From Eubacteriales bacterium (GTDB lineage: Bacteria > Bacillota > Clostridia > Lachnospirales > Lachnospiraceae): 64,000 bases of DNA. Positions 35,680-62,307 of the stretch are shown one piece after another (position 1 is the stretch's first letter; each line of letters begins with the position of its first letter). The notes under the pieces were generated by a model. That model made no database searches. It was not told the origin of the DNA and worked only from the letters and a program-made list of their open reading frames with translations. Where the stretch lies: assembly GCA_030537935.1 (NCBI GenBank), contig JAUNUY010000006.1, positions 1 through 64,000 of the forward strand, in the 5' to 3' direction. Position numbers and translations under genes: made by a program.

Positions 35680-36988
35680 CCGCCTCCTCTTCCAATCGTC
35701 GCCGAAAGTCCCGCATCGCCCGTTCCGCACCGGAATCGGTCGGTTGATAAAAGACCCGATCGACAAGCTCATCCGGGAGATATTGTTGCTTCACATAATG
35801 ATTCGTGTAACTATGGGCATATTTGTACCCCTGCCCGTGTCCCAGGGACGCCGCTCCGGTGTAGGAACCGTCCCGTAGATGAGCCGGCACATCGAAGTCA
35901 CCCTCCTTGACGGCCGCCATGGCGGCATCAATGCCCATGTAGGTCGCATTACTCTTCGGTGCCATGGCAACATATACCGCCGCCTCCGCAAGAATAATCC
36001 TGCCCTCCGGCATACCGATCCGTTCCACCGCCGCAGCGGCGTTCACGGCCACGACCAATGCCATGGGGTCGGCCAGCGAAACATCCTCCGCCGCACATAT
36101 CATAATTCGGCGGGCGATGAACTTGACATCCTCTCCGGCATAAAGCATTTTCGCCAAATAGTACAAGACGGCATCCGGATCGCTCCCGCGCATACTTTTG
36201 ATAAAAGCGGAAATCGTATCATAATGATTATCGCCGCCTTTATCATAATTCACCCGCGGTGCCTGCATGCATTCATGAACAACCGCCGCATCGATGACAA
36301 TGACACCGTTCTCATCCGGCGGCGTCGTCAATACGGCCAACTCAACGGCATTATAGGCACGACGGGCATCACCGTTTGCTAATCGTGCTATCGTACCACG
36401 GGCATCTGCCCGAAAATCAATCTGTTTATCGGGATATCCGCGGCGTACCGCGATATCCGTCATTTTCAGTATATCCGCCTCACTCAATTTTTTCAATTGA
36501 AAAATGCCGGAACGCGAAACCAGTGCCGAATTCACCTCGAAATACGGATTCTCCGTCGTCGCACCGATAAGCGTTACAACACCTTCTTCTACATATGGTA
36601 AAAGAAAATCTTGTTGCCCCTTGTTAAAGCGATGAATCTCATCAATGAACAGAATGGTCCGTTTCCCGTACATGGCCAAGACTTCTTTCGCCCGCTTGAC
36701 CACCTCCTGAAGGTCTTTTTTCCCCGCAACCGTTGCATTGACCGTCACAAACGAAGCTTTCGTCGTATTCGCTATCACGGTCGCAAGAGAAGTCTTTCCC
36801 GTCCCCGGCGGTCCATATAGGATGACGGAACGTAGTCGATCCGCCTCAATACAACGACGCAGCAGTTTGCCCGGACCGATGATATGCTCCTGACCGATGA
36901 AATCATCCAGCTTCTCCGGACGCATCCGATATGCCAAGGGCGCTCGCTCCGCCTTTTCCTTCGTTTCCATATATTCAAACAGATCCAT
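35672..36988 (-). CDS. rarA: Replication-associated recombination protein A
   Basis: A 438-residue RarA (MgsA) AAA+ ATPase that acts at stalled replication forks. Motifs: the N-terminal [18 protein letters not shown], Walker [10 protein letters not shown], Walker [15 protein letters not shown], and the C-terminal tetramerisation region with [12 protein letters not shown]. Length is standard. It overlaps genes on both sides and belongs to the parA-led run. Confidence 0.96.
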
Positions 36989-38720
36989 AATCGCTCCTTC
37001 CGCCGTCTCCGGTCAATAAGCCGTGATATAATCCTTGCGCCGCCGATAACACCTCATGTGTACCGGCTTCCACAACCTTTCCATCCTGAATAACCCAGAT
37101 TTCATCCGCACTTCGGACGGTTGCCAAACGATGTGCCGCCACAAAGACCGTCTTTCCCTCGGCAAGACGGTCAAATGCTTCCGAAATTCGTAAAGCATGA
37201 TCCGCATCCATATCCGATGTTGCCTCATCCAGTAACAAGATGTCGGCGGAGAGTAACATCGCCCTTGCGATACCGATGAACTGACGTTCTCCACGGGAAA
37301 GATTGGCTCCCCCTTCCGTCACCGGCGTATCATATCCTTGCGGTAAACGCATAATAAACGGATGGGCACAAGCATTGCGGGCAGCCTCGATAATCCGATC
37401 ACGGTCGGTCACGCCCGTCCCGTACGCAATATTCTCCGCAACGGTTCCCCGTCGTAAAAAACTGTCCTGCAACACCGCACAAAACGGTTTCCGCCGCTCG
37501 TCAGACGACAAGTTCCGTACGTCTCTGCCGTTCAAAAGAATACGACCGCCCGTCGGCCGGTACAAACCGGTAATCAAATGTAATAACGTCGTTTTCCCGC
37601 CGCCCGTCGGCCCGGCCAAGACGATTTTTTCACCCGTACGCACTTGTCGATCCACATACATCTGAAACGGTGCGCCCGAATATGAAAATGACACCTTATC
37701 CAGTTGCAAGAGCGGTGCAGCCGATTGTTTTTCAACCGGCTGCACCGGCACCGAGTCGTACAACGCATCTGCCGGTAGCGCAAAAAAATCCTCTATACGC
37801 CTTGCACAAACCACAGCACTCTGCCATTGCGTAATCATCGCCGTTAAATCATAAAACGGCGCAATAAATTGTCCCGTATACTTCAACAGCGCCAACATCC
37901 AGCCGACACTTAAACTCCCGTCCGCCACGCCAAAAGCACAGTAGACTGCAACGACGGTATAAATAACGGCATTCAAAAAACGTGTTGCGGGATTGGGCAG
38001 CGCGGCAAAGAATTGACCCCGCACACCCGCATCGACCATTCGATCCGTTATACCATGCAGATGTTGTCGATTCACGCCGTCCCTGTCACAAACGGCTTGT
38101 TCCGTTCTCGTGCTGAAGATTTCTTCGATAAAATCGCTCATTTCCGCCCGCAACTCGGCGGTTTTTTGAAAATAACGGTAGGCATTCTTTGCAATAAACA
38201 ATGTAATAATGAGAATAAAGGGAATGAAACAGGAAAGCATGACGGCCGCCGTCGGTCGCACGACAAACAAAACGACCAATGTGCCCGCCACCGTCAACAA
38301 TCCTCGGAAGAACACGGAGACCCCTTGCAATAACACTGTCCCCATCGTTTCCGGATCCTGAATCAACCGGGTCAGAAAATGTCCTTTTCCCATCTGTAAA
38401 ACGGTAGACAAATCCATGTGCAGCAAATGCTCATGTGCCGCCATACGTACCCGACTGATAAAGGCATTGAGCGACCGTTGTTGTAATCGAACCGCCGCGG
38501 CTGCGGCTACCGTTCGGAGACCGGCCGTTATCAAAAGAAGCAGAACACCCCGAAAAAGGACCCCCTCCTGATTGGCACTGCCTATTGCATCAATCGTACG
38601 ACCGATGATGAACGGGAGAGAGATATCGGCACCGGCAACTGCGGCCACACAAAGCAAAGAACAGAGGAGTAACGGCCACGCCGGTCTGAAAAATCCTTTT
38701 AAATACATCATCTTACGCAT
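36975..38720 (-). CDS. ABC exporter half-transporter, catalytic-site subunit
   Basis: A 581-residue fused permease-ATPase with six N-terminal membrane helices. Walker A is GPTGGGKTT, Walker B LLLDEATSD with the catalytic Glu, and the H-loop AAHRLATVRSAD is intact. Its signature motif is LSRGE rather than LSGGQ. With the partner at 38713-40419 it forms a heterodimeric exporter of the LmrCD/BmrCD/TM287-288 type. The start choice is uncertain: ATG at 38720 overlaps the upstream stop; ATGs at 38711 or 38708 also fit. Substrate unknown. Confidence 0.88.
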   Translation of the reverse strand: MRKMMYLKGFFRPAWPLLLCSLLCVAAVAGADISLPFIIGRTIDAIGSANQEGVLFRGVLLLLITAGLRTVAAAAAVRLQQRSLNAFISRVRMAAHEHLLHMDLSTVLQMGKGHFLTRLIQDPETMGTVLLQGVSVFFRGLLTVAGTLVVLFVVRPTAAVMLSCFIPFILIITLFIAKNAYRYFQKTAELRAEMSDFIEEIFSTRTEQAVCDRDGVNRQHLHGITDRMVDAGVRGQFFAALPNPATRFLNAVIYTVVAVYCAFGVADGSLSVGWMLALLKYTGQFIAPFYDLTAMITQWQSAVVCARRIEDFFALPADALYDSVPVQPVEKQSAAPLLQLDKVSFSYSGAPFQMYVDRQVRTGEKIVLAGPTGGGKTTLLHLITGLYRPTGGRILLNGRDVRNLSSDERRKPFCAVLQDSFLRRGTVAENIAYGTGVTDRDRIIEAARNACAHPFIMRLPQGYDTPVTEGGANLSRGERQFIGIARAMLLSADILLLDEATSDMDADHALRISEAFDRLAEGKTVFVAAHRLATVRSADEIWVIQDGKVVEAGTHEVLSAAQGLYHGLLTGDGGRSDYGSV

Positions 38721-40419
38721 CCCGTACCGCCTGTTCCGCTGCCGCCAACCGTTGATACAAGGCACAATTCTTCATCAACCGTTCATGGGTATCACAGGCG
38801 ACGGCACGCCCCTCCGATAAAACCAGGATTCGGTCACAATGCCGTACCGTCCGAATCCGCTGTGCCGTCAAAAGAAGCGTTTTTCCTTTTAAATAAGCAT
38901 GTACGCCCCGCACTACGCGCTCAGCCGTACGCCCGTCCAATGCACTGAAGGCGTCGTCAAAGCAATAGACGGGTGCAGTCCGTACCAAGGTTCTTGCCAA
39001 CATAACTCGTTGTTTTTGCCCGCCGGAGAGGTTATTCCCCTCGGCACAAATCGGATGGTCCATGCCGTCTGTCGCCAACAACTCATCCAATCCCGCCAAC
39101 CGGGCCGCGGCAAGGCGTTCCCCGGGATTTGCAGTCGGATTTCCCATAGCAATATTTTCGTCCAATGTGCCCGTATTCGGTTTTCCGCGTTGCAGACAAA
39201 AAGCAATGCACCGTGCCCTGACCGACGATGAGAATCCGCTCGGATCCGCTTCATAAAACGATATCGTTCCATTAGTCGGTGTATAACGTCCGCACAATAA
39301 GTGTAAAAGGGTACTTTTCCCTGAACCCGTCCCGCCTATGATGCCGATGTGTTCCCCCTGCTTTATATGCAAATTTAAATCTGAAACGGCAGATGCCGCT
39401 TTGTCTGAATAACGATATGACAGACCTTGTACAAGCCATACCGTTTTCCCGTCCATATCCGGTAATCCGGCACCTTGAACCACTTCGGTTCGTAATGCAA
39501 GGACTTCATTAATCCGACGCATGGCCGCCATGCCTTGCATCAAGACGGGTAGCAGCTGAATGATAACAACGGAAACAACCGTAATGGCCGTTAAATAATT
39601 GAAGTATGCGACAACGGTACCTTTCAGTATGATACCACGTTGAATCAAAGCGGCACCGAAAACCAAGGTTGCCGCATTGCCCATGTATAATATCCACTGT
39701 ACGGCCGGCTCCACCAGGCCCGTTCTCGTCCCGATGGACGTCGACAATTCGGTACGCTTAGCCTGACCTTTTGTAAAGCGATCTATTTCCGCCTCTTCCA
39801 TCTGCAAGGAGCGGATGGTCGTAATCCCGCTCACATGTTCCCGAATATGTAATGCCGCCTCTTCTTCATTTTCCTGTATCCGTCGAAAACCGGCCGGCAC
39901 ACGCCGCAATAAGAGAACGGCTGCAAACAGAATCATAAGAATTGCTGCCAGAATAATAAGGGACAGGGCGGGATTTAAAATAAAACACATGATAAAGGCA
40001 CCTGCAAAGAGGAACGGTGCACGGACGAAAAGTCGAATCAACATGGCCGTAAAGATCTGTACCTTCTCGACGTCAGCGGTGAGCCGCACAACCAAGGCCT
40101 CCACAGACTGCGCACCATACGCCTCCGGCGGCAGGTCGAGGATGATGCGAAATAAATCGTTTCTTAAATCCCGTCCCATGGACTCTGAAGTCTTGGCCGC
40201 ACTGTATTGACAAATGAGTGCACAGGCAAAACCGATAATTCCGATTCCCAACATCAATGCGCCGCTGCGTAAAATGTCCGCCTTATCCGTACCGGCACCC
40301 AGACGATTTATCAATCCGGCAACAATCAGCGGTACCAGCAGCTCCAGAATCGCTTCCGCCAACTTGAAAAATTGACCGCCGATAATATATCGGCGGTACT
40401 TTTTAAAATATGCTTTCAT
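38713..40419 (-). CDS. ABC exporter half-transporter, degenerate-site subunit
   Basis: A 568-residue fused permease-ATPase. Walker A GGTGSGKST (362-370) and signature LSGGQ (464-468) are canonical. The Walker B Glu is Asp489 (YCFDDAFSALD), and the H-loop His is Gln520 (LTAQRIRTV). These substitutions mark the non-catalytic nucleotide site of heterodimeric exporters and pair with the LSRGE signature of the downstream subunit, whose gene it overlaps by 8 bp. Cargo may be a drug, lipid or peptide; sequence does not say. Confidence 0.88.
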   Translation of the reverse strand: MKAYFKKYRRYIIGGQFFKLAEAILELLVPLIVAGLINRLGAGTDKADILRSGALMLGIGIIGFACALICQYSAAKTSESMGRDLRNDLFRIILDLPPEAYGAQSVEALVVRLTADVEKVQIFTAMLIRLFVRAPFLFAGAFIMCFILNPALSLIILAAILMILFAAVLLLRRVPAGFRRIQENEEEAALHIREHVSGITTIRSLQMEEAEIDRFTKGQAKRTELSTSIGTRTGLVEPAVQWILYMGNAATLVFGAALIQRGIILKGTVVAYFNYLTAITVVSVVIIQLLPVLMQGMAAMRRINEVLALRTEVVQGAGLPDMDGKTVWLVQGLSYRYSDKAASAVSDLNLHIKQGEHIGIIGGTGSGKSTLLHLLCGRYTPTNGTISFYEADPSGFSSSVRARCIAFCLQRGKPNTGTLDENIAMGNPTANPGERLAAARLAGLDELLATDGMDHPICAEGNNLSGGQKQRVMLARTLVRTAPVYCFDDAFSALDGRTAERVVRGVHAYLKGKTLLLTAQRIRTVRHCDRILVLSEGRAVACDTHERLMKNCALYQRLAAAEQAVRDA

Positions 40420-40421
40420 GG

Positions 40422-40895
40422 CTATTCCAATGTTAAATCATCCACCACGATTATTTTCTTCGCCTTATTCAAAGCATTCGTTTCTTCATCCGAGAGATCC
40501 TGGTAGGTCTCACCGCGAATCACTTCCTTTATAAAGACGTAACTGCCTTCATCCTGATGTAATGAACTCAAAACAAAACCCGTATCGTAACGATCCAATA
40601 TGGCGAGAGAGAAGCTGAGACGACCGCCCACGTTGCCGAAAGCATCATACCGGATGATACCGTGTTTGGCAAAGGTCCCGGAAGTAATCTTGTTCAACTT
40701 ATAATTCTGCTCAATCAGGGTCCGTATATCTTCCTCGTTCTTTTCTACCTGCGTTGCCAAATGTACGTTTGTGTTCTTTTCTTCCACATTTTTGACCATC
40801 TTCTGTAATTTCCGAACCTGTCGCACCAAACGTGCAATAAGCATGAATACCAGGATGAAAACCAGGGCGATGATGCCATATATGATATATTCCAT
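40422..40895 (-). CDS. DUF4446 family membrane-anchored protein
   Basis: A 157-residue protein with one N-terminal membrane helix (about 3-23), a coiled-coil stretch (about 25-65) and a small C-terminal domain with KHGIIRYDAFGNVGGRLSFSLAILD, characteristic of DUF4446. This family often sits beside parB near clostridial origins; its function is unknown. It begins 9 bp after parB and is 2 bp before the exporter gene. Confidence 0.85.
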   Translation of the reverse strand: MEYIIYGIIALVFILVFMLIARLVRQVRKLQKMVKNVEEKNTNVHLATQVEKNEEDIRTLIEQNYKLNKITSGTFAKHGIIRYDAFGNVGGRLSFSLAILDRYDTGFVLSSLHQDEGSYVFIKEVIRGETYQDLSDEETNALNKAKKIIVVDDLTLE

Positions 40896-40904
40896 CTTTT
40901 TCTC

Positions 40905-41741
40905 CTACTTTAAGATCTCTATGAGCCGTTCCAACTCATCCAGAGAATGATATGCGATTTCTATTTTTCCTTTATTTTTCCGGTTGTTGCAAATTCTGAC
41001 CTTCGTCCCCAAACCTGACTCCAATATCCGTTCCGCCTCTTCAATGGCGGCATCCTTCGTGATCGATCGACGTACGGTCGGTTGTTGCATCCGTTTGACC
41101 AAACGTTCCGTCTCGCGCACCGTCAAGTTCTTTTCCAGTATCAATGCCGCCGCCCGTTCCTGCTGTTTCGCCGTTTCGAGTGCCAGTAAGGTTCTGCCGT
41201 GGGCAGCACTCAGTCGTCCTTCGGCAACATGGGTGCGAACCGTAGCACTTAAACGTAAGAGCCGAACCGCATTGGCAACATAAGTTCTACTTTTTGCAAT
41301 AATTTCCGCAACTTCTTCCTGCTTCAAGCCGTAATTCTTAATCAACGACTCAATCCCGGCCGCTTCCTCCATGGGATTTAAATCTTCCCGCTGAATATTC
41401 TCTATCAAGGCGATTTCTTTAACTTGCCGCTCATCATACTCTTGGACGACAACCGGAACCTTCTTCAAACCGGCTTGCTTAGCGGCGCGCCAACGTCGTT
41501 CGCCCGCCACAATTTCATAATATCCGTCACGCTTGACAACGACCAGCGGTTGAATTATGCCGTGGCGACGTATGGACTCCGCCAATTCATCGATTTTCTC
41601 CGCATCAAATGCCTTGCGGGGCTGCTTTCGATTCGGTTCAATCTCGGCCGTTCGCAAAAATGTTTCACGTGAAACATCTTCCGCCGGAATCTTCTTGGCT
41701 ATCAGGCTGTCCAAGCCTTTGCCCAGACCGCTTTTTCTCAT
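40905..41741 (-). CDS. parB: Chromosome partitioning protein ParB (Spo0J)
   Basis: A 278-residue ParB, a CTP-dependent DNA clamp that loads at parS. The N-terminal clamp domain has IQPLVVV and GERRWRAAKQAG; then ENIQREDLNPMEEA and a helix-turn-helix (QEEVAEIIAKSRTYVANAVRLLRL). The C-terminal dimerisation region ends in IEIAYHSLDELERLIEIL. One parS (41661-41676) lies inside the 5' end of the gene. parA is 1 bp upstream. Confidence 0.96.
   Translation of the reverse strand: MRKSGLGKGLDSLIAKKIPAEDVSRETFLRTAEIEPNRKQPRKAFDAEKIDELAESIRRHGIIQPLVVVKRDGYYEIVAGERRWRAAKQAGLKKVPVVVQEYDERQVKEIALIENIQREDLNPMEEAAGIESLIKNYGLKQEEVAEIIAKSRTYVANAVRLLRLSATVRTHVAEGRLSAAHGRTLLALETAKQQERAAALILEKNLTVRETERLVKRMQQPTVRRSITKDAAIEEAERILESGLGTKVRICNNRKNKGKIEIAYHSLDELERLIEILK
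41661..41676. promoter_or_regulatory. parS site within parB
   Basis: A perfect match to the 16-bp consensus TGTTTCACGTGAAACA, inside the parB coding region near its start. Confidence 0.93.
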
Positions 41742-41742
41742 A

Positions 41743-42519
41743 TTATACCTCTTTCCGCCATCCTTTATTCTTCTTAATTAATTCCTTTGCCAACTTTTTA
41801 TAAGCAATTGCACCGGATGAACGATGGTCAAAGTAGTTAATCGGCAAACCGAAACTTGGTGCCTCCGCCAAACGAACATTTCTGGGAATCTTAATTTCAA
41901 AAATATATTCCTCCAGATGCTCCTCCACATTGGCGATAACTTCAACCGTCAAATTTGTTCTCATATCGCACATCGTAAAGACGATGCCCTCCACCGTAAG
42001 ATGGGGATTCAAACGTTCTCGAATCAGAGAAACCGTATACATCAGCTGACTCAATCCTTCCAATGCATAATACTCACATTGGATAGGTACCAGGATACTG
42101 TCCGAAGCACTCAAGGCGTTAATGGTCAGGGTTGAAAGCGAGGGTGGACAGTCAATGATGATAAAATCATATTCGTCCTTTATAGGCGCCAATGCTCGCG
42201 CCAACTTATATTCTTTATCCTCCGTGCCGATAAGCTCGACCTCGATACCTGCCAATTCAACACATCCCGGCATCAATGACAAGTTTTTGAACGGTGTATC
42301 ACGTACCGCCTCGTGCGCACTGCAATGACCCAGCAGTAAGTTATAAACACCCTCGGTATCTCGTTCAGCACCGCAACCGCCGGTCGCATTAGCCTGGGGA
42401 TCCATATCCACCAAAAGCGTCCTTTTTTTCCGGTCTGCAAGGGCCGCAGCTAAATTTACGGCGGTTGTCGTCTTTCCGACACCACCTTTCTGATTGGAAA
42501 TCGAAATTATCTTCGCCAT
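41743..42519 (-). CDS. parA: Chromosome partitioning ATPase ParA (Soj)
   Basis: A 258-residue deviant Walker ATPase working with ParB-parS in origin segregation and, in Bacillus relatives, control of DnaA. The KGGVGKTTTAVNLAAAL P-loop starts at about residue 10; DMDPQANATGG and DCPPSLSTLTINAL follow. Length is normal for chromosomal Soj without an N-terminal extension. A minus-strand TATAAT at 42538-42543 just upstream suggests the promoter of the parA-parB-DUF4446-exporter-rarA-phosphodiesterase-trkH run. Confidence 0.96.
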   Translation of the reverse strand: MAKIISISNQKGGVGKTTTAVNLAAALADRKKRTLLVDMDPQANATGGCGAERDTEGVYNLLLGHCSAHEAVRDTPFKNLSLMPGCVELAGIEVELIGTEDKEYKLARALAPIKDEYDFIIIDCPPSLSTLTINALSASDSILVPIQCEYYALEGLSQLMYTVSLIRERLNPHLTVEGIVFTMCDMRTNLTVEVIANVEEHLEEYIFEIKIPRNVRLAEAPSFGLPINYFDHRSSGAIAYKKLAKELIKKNKGWRKEV

Positions 42520-42537
42520 GTCGCCTCCTTACCCGCT

Positions 42538-42543
42538 ATTATA
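42538..42543 (-). promoter_or_regulatory. Probable -10 element for parA
   Basis: A perfect TATAAT on the minus strand 19 bp before the parA ATG. The -35 region is poor, so confidence is modest. Confidence 0.4.
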
Positions 42544-42609
42544 GCATTAAAGCCTTCAAAAATCCACGTACAGTATCCGTTTTATCCGTCGGATATCTAT
42601 CTGTTAATA

Positions 42610-42625
42610 TGTTTCACGTGAAACA
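42610..42625. promoter_or_regulatory. parS site
   Basis: Perfect 16-bp parS palindrome, about 90 bp upstream of parA. Confidence 0.95.
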
Positions 42626-42953
42626 TTAAGGGGTTCGTTTTTACGGAATAATATGTTGTTTGCCTCGCTCAAAATTGGTAAAGCACGACTTGAAAACGCC
42701 GGCCGGTAGAGAATGACTTTAATAACCCACGGAGCAGACTGCAAACAACGATACTTCCATGTCTCTCGTACGGTCATTACAATTTCTTGCAATCCTTATT
42801 TGTTGTTTTTTTTAAAGCGGGTATGACTCTTGGCCCAAACTATAAAGCCTCGCATAGACAATCGTACATGTACTGCCATAATTATGTATCATGCGAACAA
42901 TGCTTCTTATAAGAGCAGCAGGAGTTGGGCATCTGGCTGTACACCGTATTCAT

Positions 42954-42969
42954 TGTTTCACGTGAAACA
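42954..42969. promoter_or_regulatory. parS site
   Basis: Perfect 16-bp parS palindrome in the parA to DUF3881 gap. Confidence 0.95.
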
Positions 42970-43045
42970 TTTTGTGTATCGAAAACTAAATCTGTACCGA
43001 AGAATACCGAACCGAGGTGTTTTCACGAAACAATCCATAAAAAAA

Positions 43046-43061
43046 AGTTTCACGTGAAACA
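43046..43061. promoter_or_regulatory. parS site (one mismatch)
   Basis: Matches parS at 15 of 16 positions (A for the first T). It is one arm of the hairpin described at 43039-43079. Confidence 0.85.
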
Positions 43062-43063
43062 TT

Positions 43064-43079
43064 TGTCCCACGTGAAACT
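43064..43079. promoter_or_regulatory. Degenerate parS-like site
   Basis: Matches parS at 13 of 16 positions, intact in the CACGTGAAAC half. It lies 3 bp from the preceding site and forms the other arm of the hairpin. Confidence 0.6.
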
Positions 43080-43081
43080 GC

Positions 43082-43909
43082 TCAATTCGTTTCTACAACC
43101 CCTTGTAAACGCACATTCCCTTTGAATCGACGCCCCGGCAACGGTTCTCCCAAGATATCCCGACTGTTGATATAGACCGGAAACTTGTATCCATATGTTT
43201 CCAAATCCAGCTTTAACACGATTTCTCCCGTATCGCGATTGATGATTTCATCAACCGCCAAGATATTGCCCAGCACATGATAGGTATCACATTCAACACC
43301 GTAGGGCATCAGCGTCGTTTCTATTATACGATACAGTGACTCCGTCTTCATCCGTTCCCGGAGGAGATGATAGAGTTCTTCTTCCCTGTTGATGTATTCA
43401 ATTAGGCTGTCCTTGGAATGGACATCATCGATATCCGAATGCTGAAAATGTCGATTTCGGGTCGCATTGTCCGTCTTCGATATTTTTTCGTGAACGGGTT
43501 CCTTGGCCGGCAGAAGTATCTTCCCGGACAGAGAGAATCCGCTTAAATATACGGAACACTCGGGATAGTCACCCGCTGTCAGCATCTCCGGATTTGTGCA
43601 AAGAAAGGAGAGAAGCAGTAGGTTTCGTTCGTCCTCAATCACGCCGAAATAACCCGGTCCCTCACTCCGTTCCTCTACGGCCAAATCATGGATTCGCATC
43701 GCTCGATCTCCACGAGCATACGGAAAAAAGTATTCCATGGTATATTGGTCGAATTCAGGGTTCAAATAAATCATAACCCCCATATCCAGACCACATTCAT
43801 GGTTCATCAGCCGCCCACTGTCTCTCGTAACGAAATGACTCAGATAGTTCATGGCTTCCGCTCGTGAATGTAAGCCGGTATAACCGATTGCTCTCAAATA
43901 ACGATACAT
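43082..43909 (-). CDS. DUF3881-like protein of unknown function
   Basis: A 275-residue soluble protein. The start MYRYLRAIGYTGLHSRAEAM and overall layout resemble DUF3881, found in clostridia; I assign it from memory of that family, not a search. No catalytic motif, membrane helix or signal peptide is visible. The segment KISKTDNATRNRHFQHSD (about 142-159) looks like a flexible linker. The ATG follows GGGGAGAAG. It is the distal gene of the gyrase-serS run, 23 bp after serS. Confidence 0.65.
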   Translation of the reverse strand: MYRYLRAIGYTGLHSRAEAMNYLSHFVTRDSGRLMNHECGLDMGVMIYLNPEFDQYTMEYFFPYARGDRAMRIHDLAVEERSEGPGYFGVIEDERNLLLLSFLCTNPEMLTAGDYPECSVYLSGFSLSGKILLPAKEPVHEKISKTDNATRNRHFQHSDIDDVHSKDSLIEYINREEELYHLLRERMKTESLYRIIETTLMPYGVECDTYHVLGNILAVDEIINRDTGEIVLKLDLETYGYKFPVYINSRDILGEPLPGRRFKGNVRLQGVVETN

Positions 43910-43932
43910 AATACTTCTCCCCGTCTAGGCGG

Positions 43933-45216
43933 TCAATCGTTTCGAATTTCCTTCAAACCGCCCATATATGGTATGAGTACGTCCGGTATCCGTACGGAAC
44001 CGTCCGCCTGTTGATAGTTTTCCAATATGGCGGCCACCGTACGACCTACCGCAACACCGCTGCCGTTTAATGTATGGACAAATTTTGCCTTATCTTTCGG
44101 ACCGTCTTTAAACTTAATGTTTGCACGACGTGCCTGAAATTCTTCAAAGTTGGAACAGCTTGAAATCTCAACATATCGATTATAGCTGGGCATCCAAACT
44201 TCCAGATCATATTTCATGGCAGCCGTAAAGCCCAAATCACCGATACATATCTTGACCACCCGGTAGGGTAGTTGCAGGAGTTCCAATACACGACGGGCAT
44301 CATTCGTCAACTTTTCCAACTCATCGTAAGACTGTTCCGGTCGCGTAAATTTAACCAACTCCACCTTATTGAATTGATGCTGACGTATCAAACCGCGTGT
44401 ATCTCTTCCGGCCGAACCGGCTTCCGCACGGAAGCAGGCACTGTAGGCGACATACTTTAAGGGCAGACTGTTACCGTCCAATATTTCTTCCCGATGCATA
44501 TTCGTGACCGGTACCTCGGCAGTCGGTATCAAAAAATACTCTTTTCCGTCGCCGAGCACCTTGTAGGCGTCTTCCTCGAACTTCGGCAACTGACCCGTCC
44601 CGATCATACTTTGACGGCTGACCATAAATGGTGGAAAAATCTCCTCATAGCCATGTTCCGTCGTATGCGTATCCAAATAAAAGTTGATGATGGCACGTTC
44701 CAATCGTGCACCGGCCCCTTTATAAAACGTAAAACGAGATCCCGTCGTACGACCCGCCGCTTCCGGGTTGATGATATTGAGTTCATTACCCAAATCCCAG
44801 TGCGCTTTCGGCTCGAAGTCAAAGGCCGTCGGCTCCATGAAGCGATCCGTCTCGACGTTATCCTCATCGGTATCACCTGTCGGTACACTCGGATTCGGAA
44901 TATTCGGAATCGTCAACAGAAAATCATTGAGTTCCGCCTCCACCTCGTTTACCTGGCGATCCAATACCTTGATTTCCGCCGATAAAAGCTTCATTTTGTC
45001 AAAAATCGGAGCAACATCCTCCCCGGCTTTCTTTAATTCAGGAATTTTCTTTGATACAGCGTTCTGTTCCTGCTTCATGGACTCAACTTCCGTCAACAAT
45101 TTCCGTCGACGGTGATCCAATTCCGTAAACTTCTCTAAATTGAAGTCTTCGTTCCTCGTCTTGAGTGCCTCGCGTACGCGGTCAAACTCATTTCGCAATA
45201 CCTTTACATCTAACAT
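43933..45216 (-). CDS. serS: Seryl-tRNA synthetase
   Basis: A 427-residue class II synthetase charging tRNA-Ser (and tRNA-Sec). The N-terminal antiparallel coiled-coil arm covers about 25-105 ([20 protein letters not shown]…). Class II motifs include the motif 2 region ([21 protein letters not shown]) and the C-terminal motif 3 ([19 protein letters not shown]). Length is standard. I see no T-box leader; the gene lies 13 bp after the M18 aminopeptidase gene inside the operon. Confidence 0.97.
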
Positions 45217-45229
45217 GGCCTATCTCCCT

Positions 45230-46615
45230 TCAATTTTCCAAAAAGCAGCGGTACGCCTTATATGTCATATAAGCGTCTGCTTTGGCAACCAATTCGGTCG
45301 GTGCATGCATGCTGAGCATCGGTGTACCGCAATCCACGACCTCGGCCCCCTTATTGGCCAAAATATAAGCAATCGTTCCGCCGCCACCTTGGTCAACCTT
45401 CCCCAATTCCGACGTCTGCCATACGACACCATGTGCATCGAAAAGACGACCCAAACCGCCTATGAATTCCGCATTGGCATCATTACAGCCGCTTTTTCCG
45501 CGAGAACCCGTATACTTACTGAGGCTGACGCCATGGCCTATTTTCGACCCGTTCAACGGATCGTCCACTTCCGGGAAAGACGGGTCATGTCCGTTGGTTA
45601 CGTCGGCACTCAGTACCCTCGTCCCCTGATAACAACGACCCAAACGCAAGAAAACGTCTCCCGGTGTCTTCGCTAAAATCTCCGCCAAGGCGTGGTCGAA
45701 AAAAGCACCTTCCATGCCGGTATTACCCATGCTGCCGACCTCTTCTTTGTCAACAAAGAGACCGACCGCCGTCCGCTCCGGATTCGACAAATTCAGTATC
45801 GCCTCCAGACCGGCATAACTGCAAACGCGATCATCATGGCCATGACCGGCAATCATCGCCCGATCCAGACCCACATCACGTGCCGGACCCGCCGGTACGA
45901 GTTCAAACTCCGCCGTCAGGAAATCCCGCTCCGTCATACCGTATTTTCTGTTCAAAATCCCCAGTAAATTATCCTTCACGGGATGCTTGGACTCCTTATC
46001 CGCCCCAAAAGAGCACTGACCGATGACGGCATTGAGCTGTTCACCCGTAATGCCTTCCGCCAGCTTCTTCTGCATTTGATCCTTGGATAAATGAATCAAA
46101 AGATCCGTAATATACAGAACCGGATCGTCCGGATTTTCTCCCACATTAATATGAACCGTCTCCCCATCGGCATTCGTATACACACCGTGCAAAGCCAACG
46201 GTGTACACACCCATTGATAGGTTTTTACGCCACCGTAATAATGCGTCTTCATCAGGGCCATATTACCGTCTTCATAGAGCGGTAACGGTTTTACATCCAA
46301 TCTCGGTGCGTCCAAATGTGCCCCGACGATGTTCATCCCGTCTTCCAAGTTCCGTCCCATAACAAAGAGTACTGCACTCTTGTTCTTATGATTCAAATAC
46401 AGTTTATCTCCGGGTTTAATCTCTCCCCGTAATGCTTCCTCCAACGGCTTGAATCCGGCCTCTTTTGCCCGGCTCAAAATCTCCGTCACCGCCAGACGCT
46501 CCGTCTTTGCCTTACTGATAAATTTTCTATACCGTTCCCCATATTCAAAAACGGCCTTTTTTTCCGCCATGTCCGTTTCAAACCAGACATTTTTTCTCTT
46601 ATATCCTAATTCCAT
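45230..46615 (-). CDS. M18 family aspartyl aminopeptidase
   Basis: A 461-residue M18 metallopeptidase that removes acidic or other N-terminal residues from peptides in the cytosol. Dizinc-site motifs: GAHLDAPRLD, GHGHDDRVCS, DKEEVGSMGNTG, SADVTNGHDPSFP and SMHAPTEL. Length matches the clostridial M18 branch. It begins 15 bp after gyrA and is co-oriented, an unusual but plausible extension of the gyrase operon. Confidence 0.93.
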   Translation of the reverse strand: MELGYKRKNVWFETDMAEKKAVFEYGERYRKFISKAKTERLAVTEILSRAKEAGFKPLEEALRGEIKPGDKLYLNHKNKSAVLFVMGRNLEDGMNIVGAHLDAPRLDVKPLPLYEDGNMALMKTHYYGGVKTYQWVCTPLALHGVYTNADGETVHINVGENPDDPVLYITDLLIHLSKDQMQKKLAEGITGEQLNAVIGQCSFGADKESKHPVKDNLLGILNRKYGMTERDFLTAEFELVPAGPARDVGLDRAMIAGHGHDDRVCSYAGLEAILNLSNPERTAVGLFVDKEEVGSMGNTGMEGAFFDHALAEILAKTPGDVFLRLGRCYQGTRVLSADVTNGHDPSFPEVDDPLNGSKIGHGVSLSKYTGSRGKSGCNDANAEFIGGLGRLFDAHGVVWQTSELGKVDQGGGGTIAYILANKGAEVVDCGTPMLSMHAPTELVAKADAYMTYKAYRCFLEN

Positions 46616-62271: not shown

Positions 62272-62307
62272 AAAAAAAGTCCCGCACGAAAACCGTGTGG
62301 GACTTTT
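62272..62307 (-). terminator. Terminator after tRNA-Arg
   Basis: A 14-bp stem (62275-62288 with 62294-62307) with a 5-nt loop is followed on the minus strand by a T run. It ends the tRNA transcript and may also stop rsmG readthrough. Confidence 0.85.

Follow-up and report, generated by a model that had tools for sequence, protein, structure and literature searches.

The chromosomal centromere site parS is normally described as an element that acts purely at the level of the DNA. Titles, abstracts and accessible passages of the open-licence literature gave no description of a chromosomal parS that serves as a transcription terminator. The nearest analogue of such an arrangement would be the uptake sequences (DUS) of Neisseria, for which PMC2397512 (citing Ambur 2007 and Kingsford 2007) states that closely spaced inverted pairs act as Rho-independent terminators. 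In both cases a sequence recognized at the DNA level would be paired as the arms of a terminator hairpin, but DUS lacks palindromic symmetry, occurs in very large numbers and functions in transformation, whereas parS is a rare palindrome near the origin that serves segregation and of which a single copy can be the whole core of a hairpin. A further point of reference is P. aeruginosa, in which ParB binds half-parS and such half-sites are scattered genome-wide according to PMC7022226 and PMC10419367.

Here we analyzed a 64-kb stretch of DNA from the genome of a gut bacterium of the Lachnospiraceae, called the window in the following, in which a predicted terminator hairpin between the DUF3881 gene and parA is composed of one parS and one degraded parS. 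As in other intrinsic (Rho-independent) terminators the hairpin comes right after a stop codon, is followed at once by a U-tract and would separate an operon from the next unit; it differs from them in that its stem derives from a centromere sequence recognized by a protein and contains fewer G-C pairs than the ordinary terminators of the window. Likewise, the site resembles the chromosomal parS of ParABS systems (Spo0J/ParB type) in its match to the consensus TGTTTCACGTGAAACA, in the clustering beside parAB and in the distance of about 12 kb from dnaA, but unlike chromosomal parS as normally described it has a second arm and a U-tract, which would make it a terminator. This second arm retains one GTTTCAC half-site, reminiscent of the half-parS known from P. 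aeruginosa, but one that belongs to a hairpin and adjoins a full site. The features are as follows:

40905-41741, minus strand: parB (spo0J family), with ParB_N, HTH_ParB and ParB_C domains; TIGR00180
41661-41676: parS, exact, within the 5' part of parB
41743-42519, minus strand: parA (soj)
42538-42543, minus strand: candidate extended -10 element (TGC-TATAAT) of a parA promoter, as read from the sequence
42610-42625: parS, exact match, some 90 bp ahead of parA
42954-42969: parS, exact match to the consensus
43039-43045, minus strand: U-tract, seven unpaired T 3' of the stem
43046-43079, minus strand: predicted terminator hairpin, 15-bp stem (two G-U pairs) and 4-nt loop, separated from the stop codon by 2 nt
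43046-43061: parS with one mismatch (AGTTTCACGTGAAACA), 3' arm of the hairpin
43064-43079: degraded parS with three mismatches (TGTCCCACGTGAAACT on the plus strand), 5' arm of the hairpin, with one intact half-site
43082-43909, minus strand: DUF3881 gene (PF12997, Pfam E-value 3e-48), last of a string of five genes

Gene order at the locus and in the family

The assignment of the gene in front of the hairpin to DUF3881, made by the first-pass annotation from the sequence alone, is borne out by the Pfam match. This gene closes the co-directional string gyrB-gyrA-M18 aminopeptidase-serS-DUF3881, whose gaps measure 13-27 nt, and dnaA and dnaN are located just upstream of the gyrase genes with one gene between, at the putative recF position. 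On the same strand, parA-parB-DUF4446 follow after a gap of 562 nt, which also contains the parS sites at 42954 and 42610 that match the consensus exactly. The candidate extended -10 element TGC-TATAAT at 42543-42538 indicates that parA is plausibly a separate transcription unit.

The genome was placed in the Lachnospiraceae: DUF3881 is present in 236 of the 299 sampled genomes of the family, and those relatives that carry a name belong to it. The usual order in relatives is parA-parB-DUF4446-serS-DUF3881, often with rsmG before parA where this was checked. Compared with the family, positions 36975-46615 of the window are rearranged in that serS-DUF3881 is found before parA instead of after DUF4446, while rsmG is located apart from parA and has an ordinary terminator without parS at 62276-62306. 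Two types of serS occur at one locus across the family: the window serS (43933-45216) shares about 76% identity with the DUF3881-adjacent serS of L013, L014, L023 and L036 and is only about 34% identical to that of most relatives. The ParB protein of the window contains the motif LSAAHGRTLL, in which the position of the second A is occupied by G in 127 of 145 relatives and by R in 17 (GHAR/RHAR). This position is presumably near residues that affect parS/NBS specificity.

The hairpin and its two arms

Re-reading of positions 43039-43081 gave the same letters and coordinates as the first-pass annotation, which had described an 11-bp perfect stem on the minus strand, followed by seven T and beginning 2 bp past the DUF3881 stop codon. 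Each of these elements was found again, and the stem could be extended to 15 bp. On the minus strand the TGA of DUF3881 (43084-43082) is followed by GC, the hairpin AGTTTCACGTGGGAC-AAAT-GTTTCACGTGAAACT (43079-43046) and TTTTTTT (43045-43039). The run of T comprises eight letters, the first of which closes the stem while seven are unpaired, and the 11 perfect pairs are continued by four more, two of them G-U. The folding energy of the 46-nt stretch is -21.0 kcal/mol (z = -7.5, equalled in none of 200 shuffles) and that of the hairpin by itself -20.4 kcal/mol. As the plus strand gives a weaker fold (-15.7 kcal/mol) and lacks a T-tract, a terminator at this position would be directional.

In line with the first-pass annotation, a terminator caller returned no second terminator in the 562 nt between DUF3881 and parA. 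The hairpin ranks seventh by energy among the 77 calls in the window; 6 of the 15 pairs of its stem are G-C, and its strength per pair is below that of GC-rich terminators elsewhere in the window. Taken together, the sequence has the hallmarks of an intrinsic terminator, a stable hairpin with a U-tract at the end of the last gene and without a competitor.

Both arms had been taken for parS palindromes, which holds for only one of them. With at most one or two mismatches to the consensus allowed for a full member, site 43046-43061 is a parS that keeps 15 of 16 bases and the full inner palindrome; it is located in the origin domain, 12 kb from dnaA and 0.5 kb upstream of parA. Site 43064-43079 exceeds this number of mismatches and retains the GTTTCAC half. 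The element is therefore better described as parS plus half-parS than as two parS. Two of the changes in the degraded arm form G-U pairs in the minus-strand RNA, while pairing is lost in the plus strand, and since the consensus has been lost and the pairing kept, this arm probably matters mainly as RNA. The idea that the second arm resembles parS by chance was rejected: five sites with up to three mismatches occur in the window and 0.32 are expected per 64 kb, so that a match of this quality would very rarely fall less than 20 bp from a parS. Beyond the cluster in the window, no parS with up to two mismatches was detected in the 1.37-Mb, 85%-complete assembly. Just beyond the U-tract, at 43018-43032, we noticed the parS-like palindrome TGTTTTCACGAAACA with one insertion and one deletion, which may be a further decayed parS.

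We consider it unlikely that the element is an ordinary terminator only, with arms that are relics of parS and a position at which ParB binding has ceased to matter. The decay of site 43064 to three mismatches with RNA pairing kept through two G-U pairs fits such relics, as do the two internal changes that spare pairing on the minus strand only (-20.4 versus -15.7 kcal/mol), but the other arm is preserved in 15 of 16 bases including the inner palindrome. Furthermore, the parS core is nearly always exact in the parS-containing terminators of relatives, which is expected if ParB binding is still under selection.

The explanation that we regard as probable is an intrinsic terminator built from a ParB-binding centromere site that insulates the parS-parAB region. 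According to this model, the transcribed degraded parS would pair with the transcribed intact parS to form the 15-bp hairpin as the polymerase leaves DUF3881, and the seven U behind it would release the transcript of the gyrase-serS-DUF3881 string. As duplex DNA, the parS at 43046 would stay one of the ParB loading sites of the genome, and termination would shield the parS sites at 42954 and 42610 and the parA promoter from the polymerase. All evidence for the overlap of parS and terminator, in the window as well as in relatives, is sequence-based, and from it we infer each of the three components, i.e., termination at 43039-43079, ParB binding there and insulation as the benefit.

The first-pass annotation had left it between an influence of ParB on termination and a mere merging of two functions by economy. 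The latter is the simpler reading, and an effect of ParB on termination is not required by it. It seems quite improbable to us that the terminator is ParB-sensitive, i.e., that ParB or its clamp at parS alters termination, for example by pausing the polymerase at the hairpin, and that centromere occupancy in this way feeds back on read-through from gyrase-serS into parAB. The bases that encode the hairpin are also the binding site, and the hairpin can form only once the polymerase has passed parS. Effects of ParB at parS on nearby expression are described for some bacteria in a review (PMC7022226), but the same review reports that expression near parS is unchanged upon loss of Spo0J in B. subtilis, and the hairpin and U-tract at this locus look sufficient unaided.

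Predicted parS-containing terminators before parA in relatives

In relatives the end of DUF3881 is uninformative because this gene comes last in parA-parB-DUF4446-serS-DUF3881. The counterpart of the site is the gap in front of parA, which often follows rsmG. We collected 166 parA-upstream regions from Lachnospiraceae and 79 from other Clostridia by a ParA search and direct fetch. After calling the upstream genes from open reading frames, 101 and 54 regions, respectively, had a co-directional gene before parA. As most relatives are represented by one genome per genus, the cases are largely, though not strictly, independent. The genus of the window comprises one incomplete genome, and the genera of G099 and G025 also have a single genome each.

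A parS within 600 bp upstream of parA was found in 134 of the 144 Lachnospiraceae regions that were long enough to judge. An unusually long array of about ten parS-like sites at a spacing of about 37 bp was noticed upstream of parA at L249 (genome G169), and six parS at about 52 bp at L152 (genome G130). Where Lachnospiraceae have a promoter-proximal parS, near -80 relative to the start of parA, the motifs TAGATA, GGTATA or TGGATA follow within 10 nt in 13 of 56 cases, compared with 9 of 260 distal sites, which suggests that some parS are also located at the parA promoter.

The enrichment of plain T-runs near parS was rejected as evidence, for runs of at least five T are common beside parS on both strands and even more so in antisense (30 sense and 53 antisense among 316 sites). 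As these counts are misleading, we relied on shuffled flanks, arm complementarity and covariation. Terminators in these regions were called as a hairpin of -12 kcal/mol or better with a U-tract no more than 120 nt past the stop codon. In Lachnospiraceae, 22 of the 101 regions have a parS-containing terminator behind the gene before parA, compared with 9 when the antisense strand is read; 14 of the remaining 79 have a terminator without parS and 65 have none. With parS fixed and the flanks shuffled in small blocks, a mean of 1.7 and a maximum of 5 were obtained in 80 runs. In the other Clostridia (n = 54), 6 terminators with parS, 12 without parS and 36 regions without a terminator were counted. 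The arms point in the same direction: at least eight extra perfect pairs on each side of parS were found at 26 of 369 Lachnospiraceae sites, compared with 0.31 expected after random re-pairing of left and right flanks (maximum 4 in 5000), and at 8 of 75 sites in other Clostridia, with 0.14 expected. Among the 21 extended sites at gene ends, a run of at least four U at the stem end is present in sense in 13 and in antisense in 6; eight sites have it in sense only and one in antisense only, and unextended controls reach 14% on each strand.

Additional evidence comes from genus g283 with 20 usable genomes, in which parS is often located 4-61 nt behind rsmG and the arms vary (gaaa/tttc, gaga/tctc, gata/tatc, agga/tcct). 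The covariation set comprised every parS in the position after rsmG regardless of arm quality, 11 sequences in total. In this alignment 93% of the cells pair, and two-sided changes affect 7 pairs and 16 cells; none of 500 shuffles was as high and slid controls gave at most 6 cells. These two-sided changes around an invariant parS indicate that the stem is maintained by compensatory change. The excess of 22 over 1.7, the sense bias of the U-tract and the compensatory changes in g283 thus support the claim that a centromere site coincides with an operon end. Predicted terminators with a parS core are a class that is met above chance at the gene end before parA in relatives, and the recurrence in many relatives suggests that the merger was selected and is not accidental.

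A comparison of the same locus in relatives had been proposed by the first-pass annotation; in it, a predicted parS terminator before parA recurs, mostly in another form than the tandem pair. In the commoner architecture a longer inverted repeat is built around a single parS, as in AAGAGGAATGTTTCATGTGAAACATTCCTCTT-TTTTT (L265) or ACCCCCTATTGTTTCACGTGAAACAATAGGGGGT-TTTGTTTT (L347). Neighbouring parS copies as the two arms, followed by a T-run, are rare, with 4 of 397 family genomes from four genera including the window. In G098 and G096 the pair is located directly behind the preceding gene and has T6 on the parA strand, and a congener of G096 has the extended palindrome in its place. The pair in G229 is found just downstream of an ordinary terminator, and some tandem pairs may therefore be due to chance.

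Extended arms also occur at parS off gene ends (at least six extra pairs in 25 of 203 middle sites), and at L144, L133, L195 and others we observed such palindromes sometimes without a U-tract. As T-runs beside parS are, moreover, generally not sense-biased, DNA-level roles of the longer palindrome are possible. It is decidedly unlikely, however, that the palindrome was selected as DNA, for its architecture or a stronger ParB footprint, with the terminator look being secondary. The arms off gene ends speak for this idea, and the changes at gene ends to G-U versus A-C (6 versus 2, sparse counts) fit selection on RNA as well as on DNA. Against it, the share of sites with a sense U-tract at the stem end is 62% at gene ends, 35% at other positions and 10-15% in unextended controls, while the antisense U-tract off gene ends is hardly enriched (27.5% versus 23%), and the arm sequences vary freely between genera, which argues against a protein recognition motif. 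It is very unlikely that these are centromere sites only, with parS copies that came to lie near a T-run and a stop codon by chance because the gap is rich in A and T, and with no function in termination. The frequency of T-runs of at least five on both strands and the near universal parS clusters upstream of parA in the family would agree with this view, but 22 cases versus 1.7 under shuffled flanks, the sense bias at gene ends, the covariation and the lack of an alternative terminator in the gap of the window before parA speak against it.

Implications for parS in Clostridia

The picture that would emerge for the terminator built from a centromere site is that across Clostridia a parS cluster and the end of the gene before it often share the gap in front of parA, and that parS may have been recruited repeatedly as terminator core, since its palindrome already provides a stem and an ACGT loop. 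What is new is that the predicted merger of parS and terminator recurs across relatives and is not a one-off. It is a rather unlikely, more far-reaching version that the parS sites before parA in Clostridia are jointly selected as terminators, with ParB loading and termination coupled. In such a coupling ParB loading would modulate termination, or termination would protect the ParB assembly from transcription, and the occupancy of the centromere would be linked to read-through from the upstream operon.

Should the merger hold for many Clostridia, both RNA and ParB would shape the sequence that surrounds parS. Deletion or relocation of such a parS would then also change the transcription of its neighbours, and centromere experiments would need a control for this effect. 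Such loci would be a natural system to study how transcription and the sliding clamps of ParB share the same bases. Furthermore, they would add a second, unrelated case to the uptake sequences of Neisseria, in which a DNA recognition site has been recruited as a terminator.
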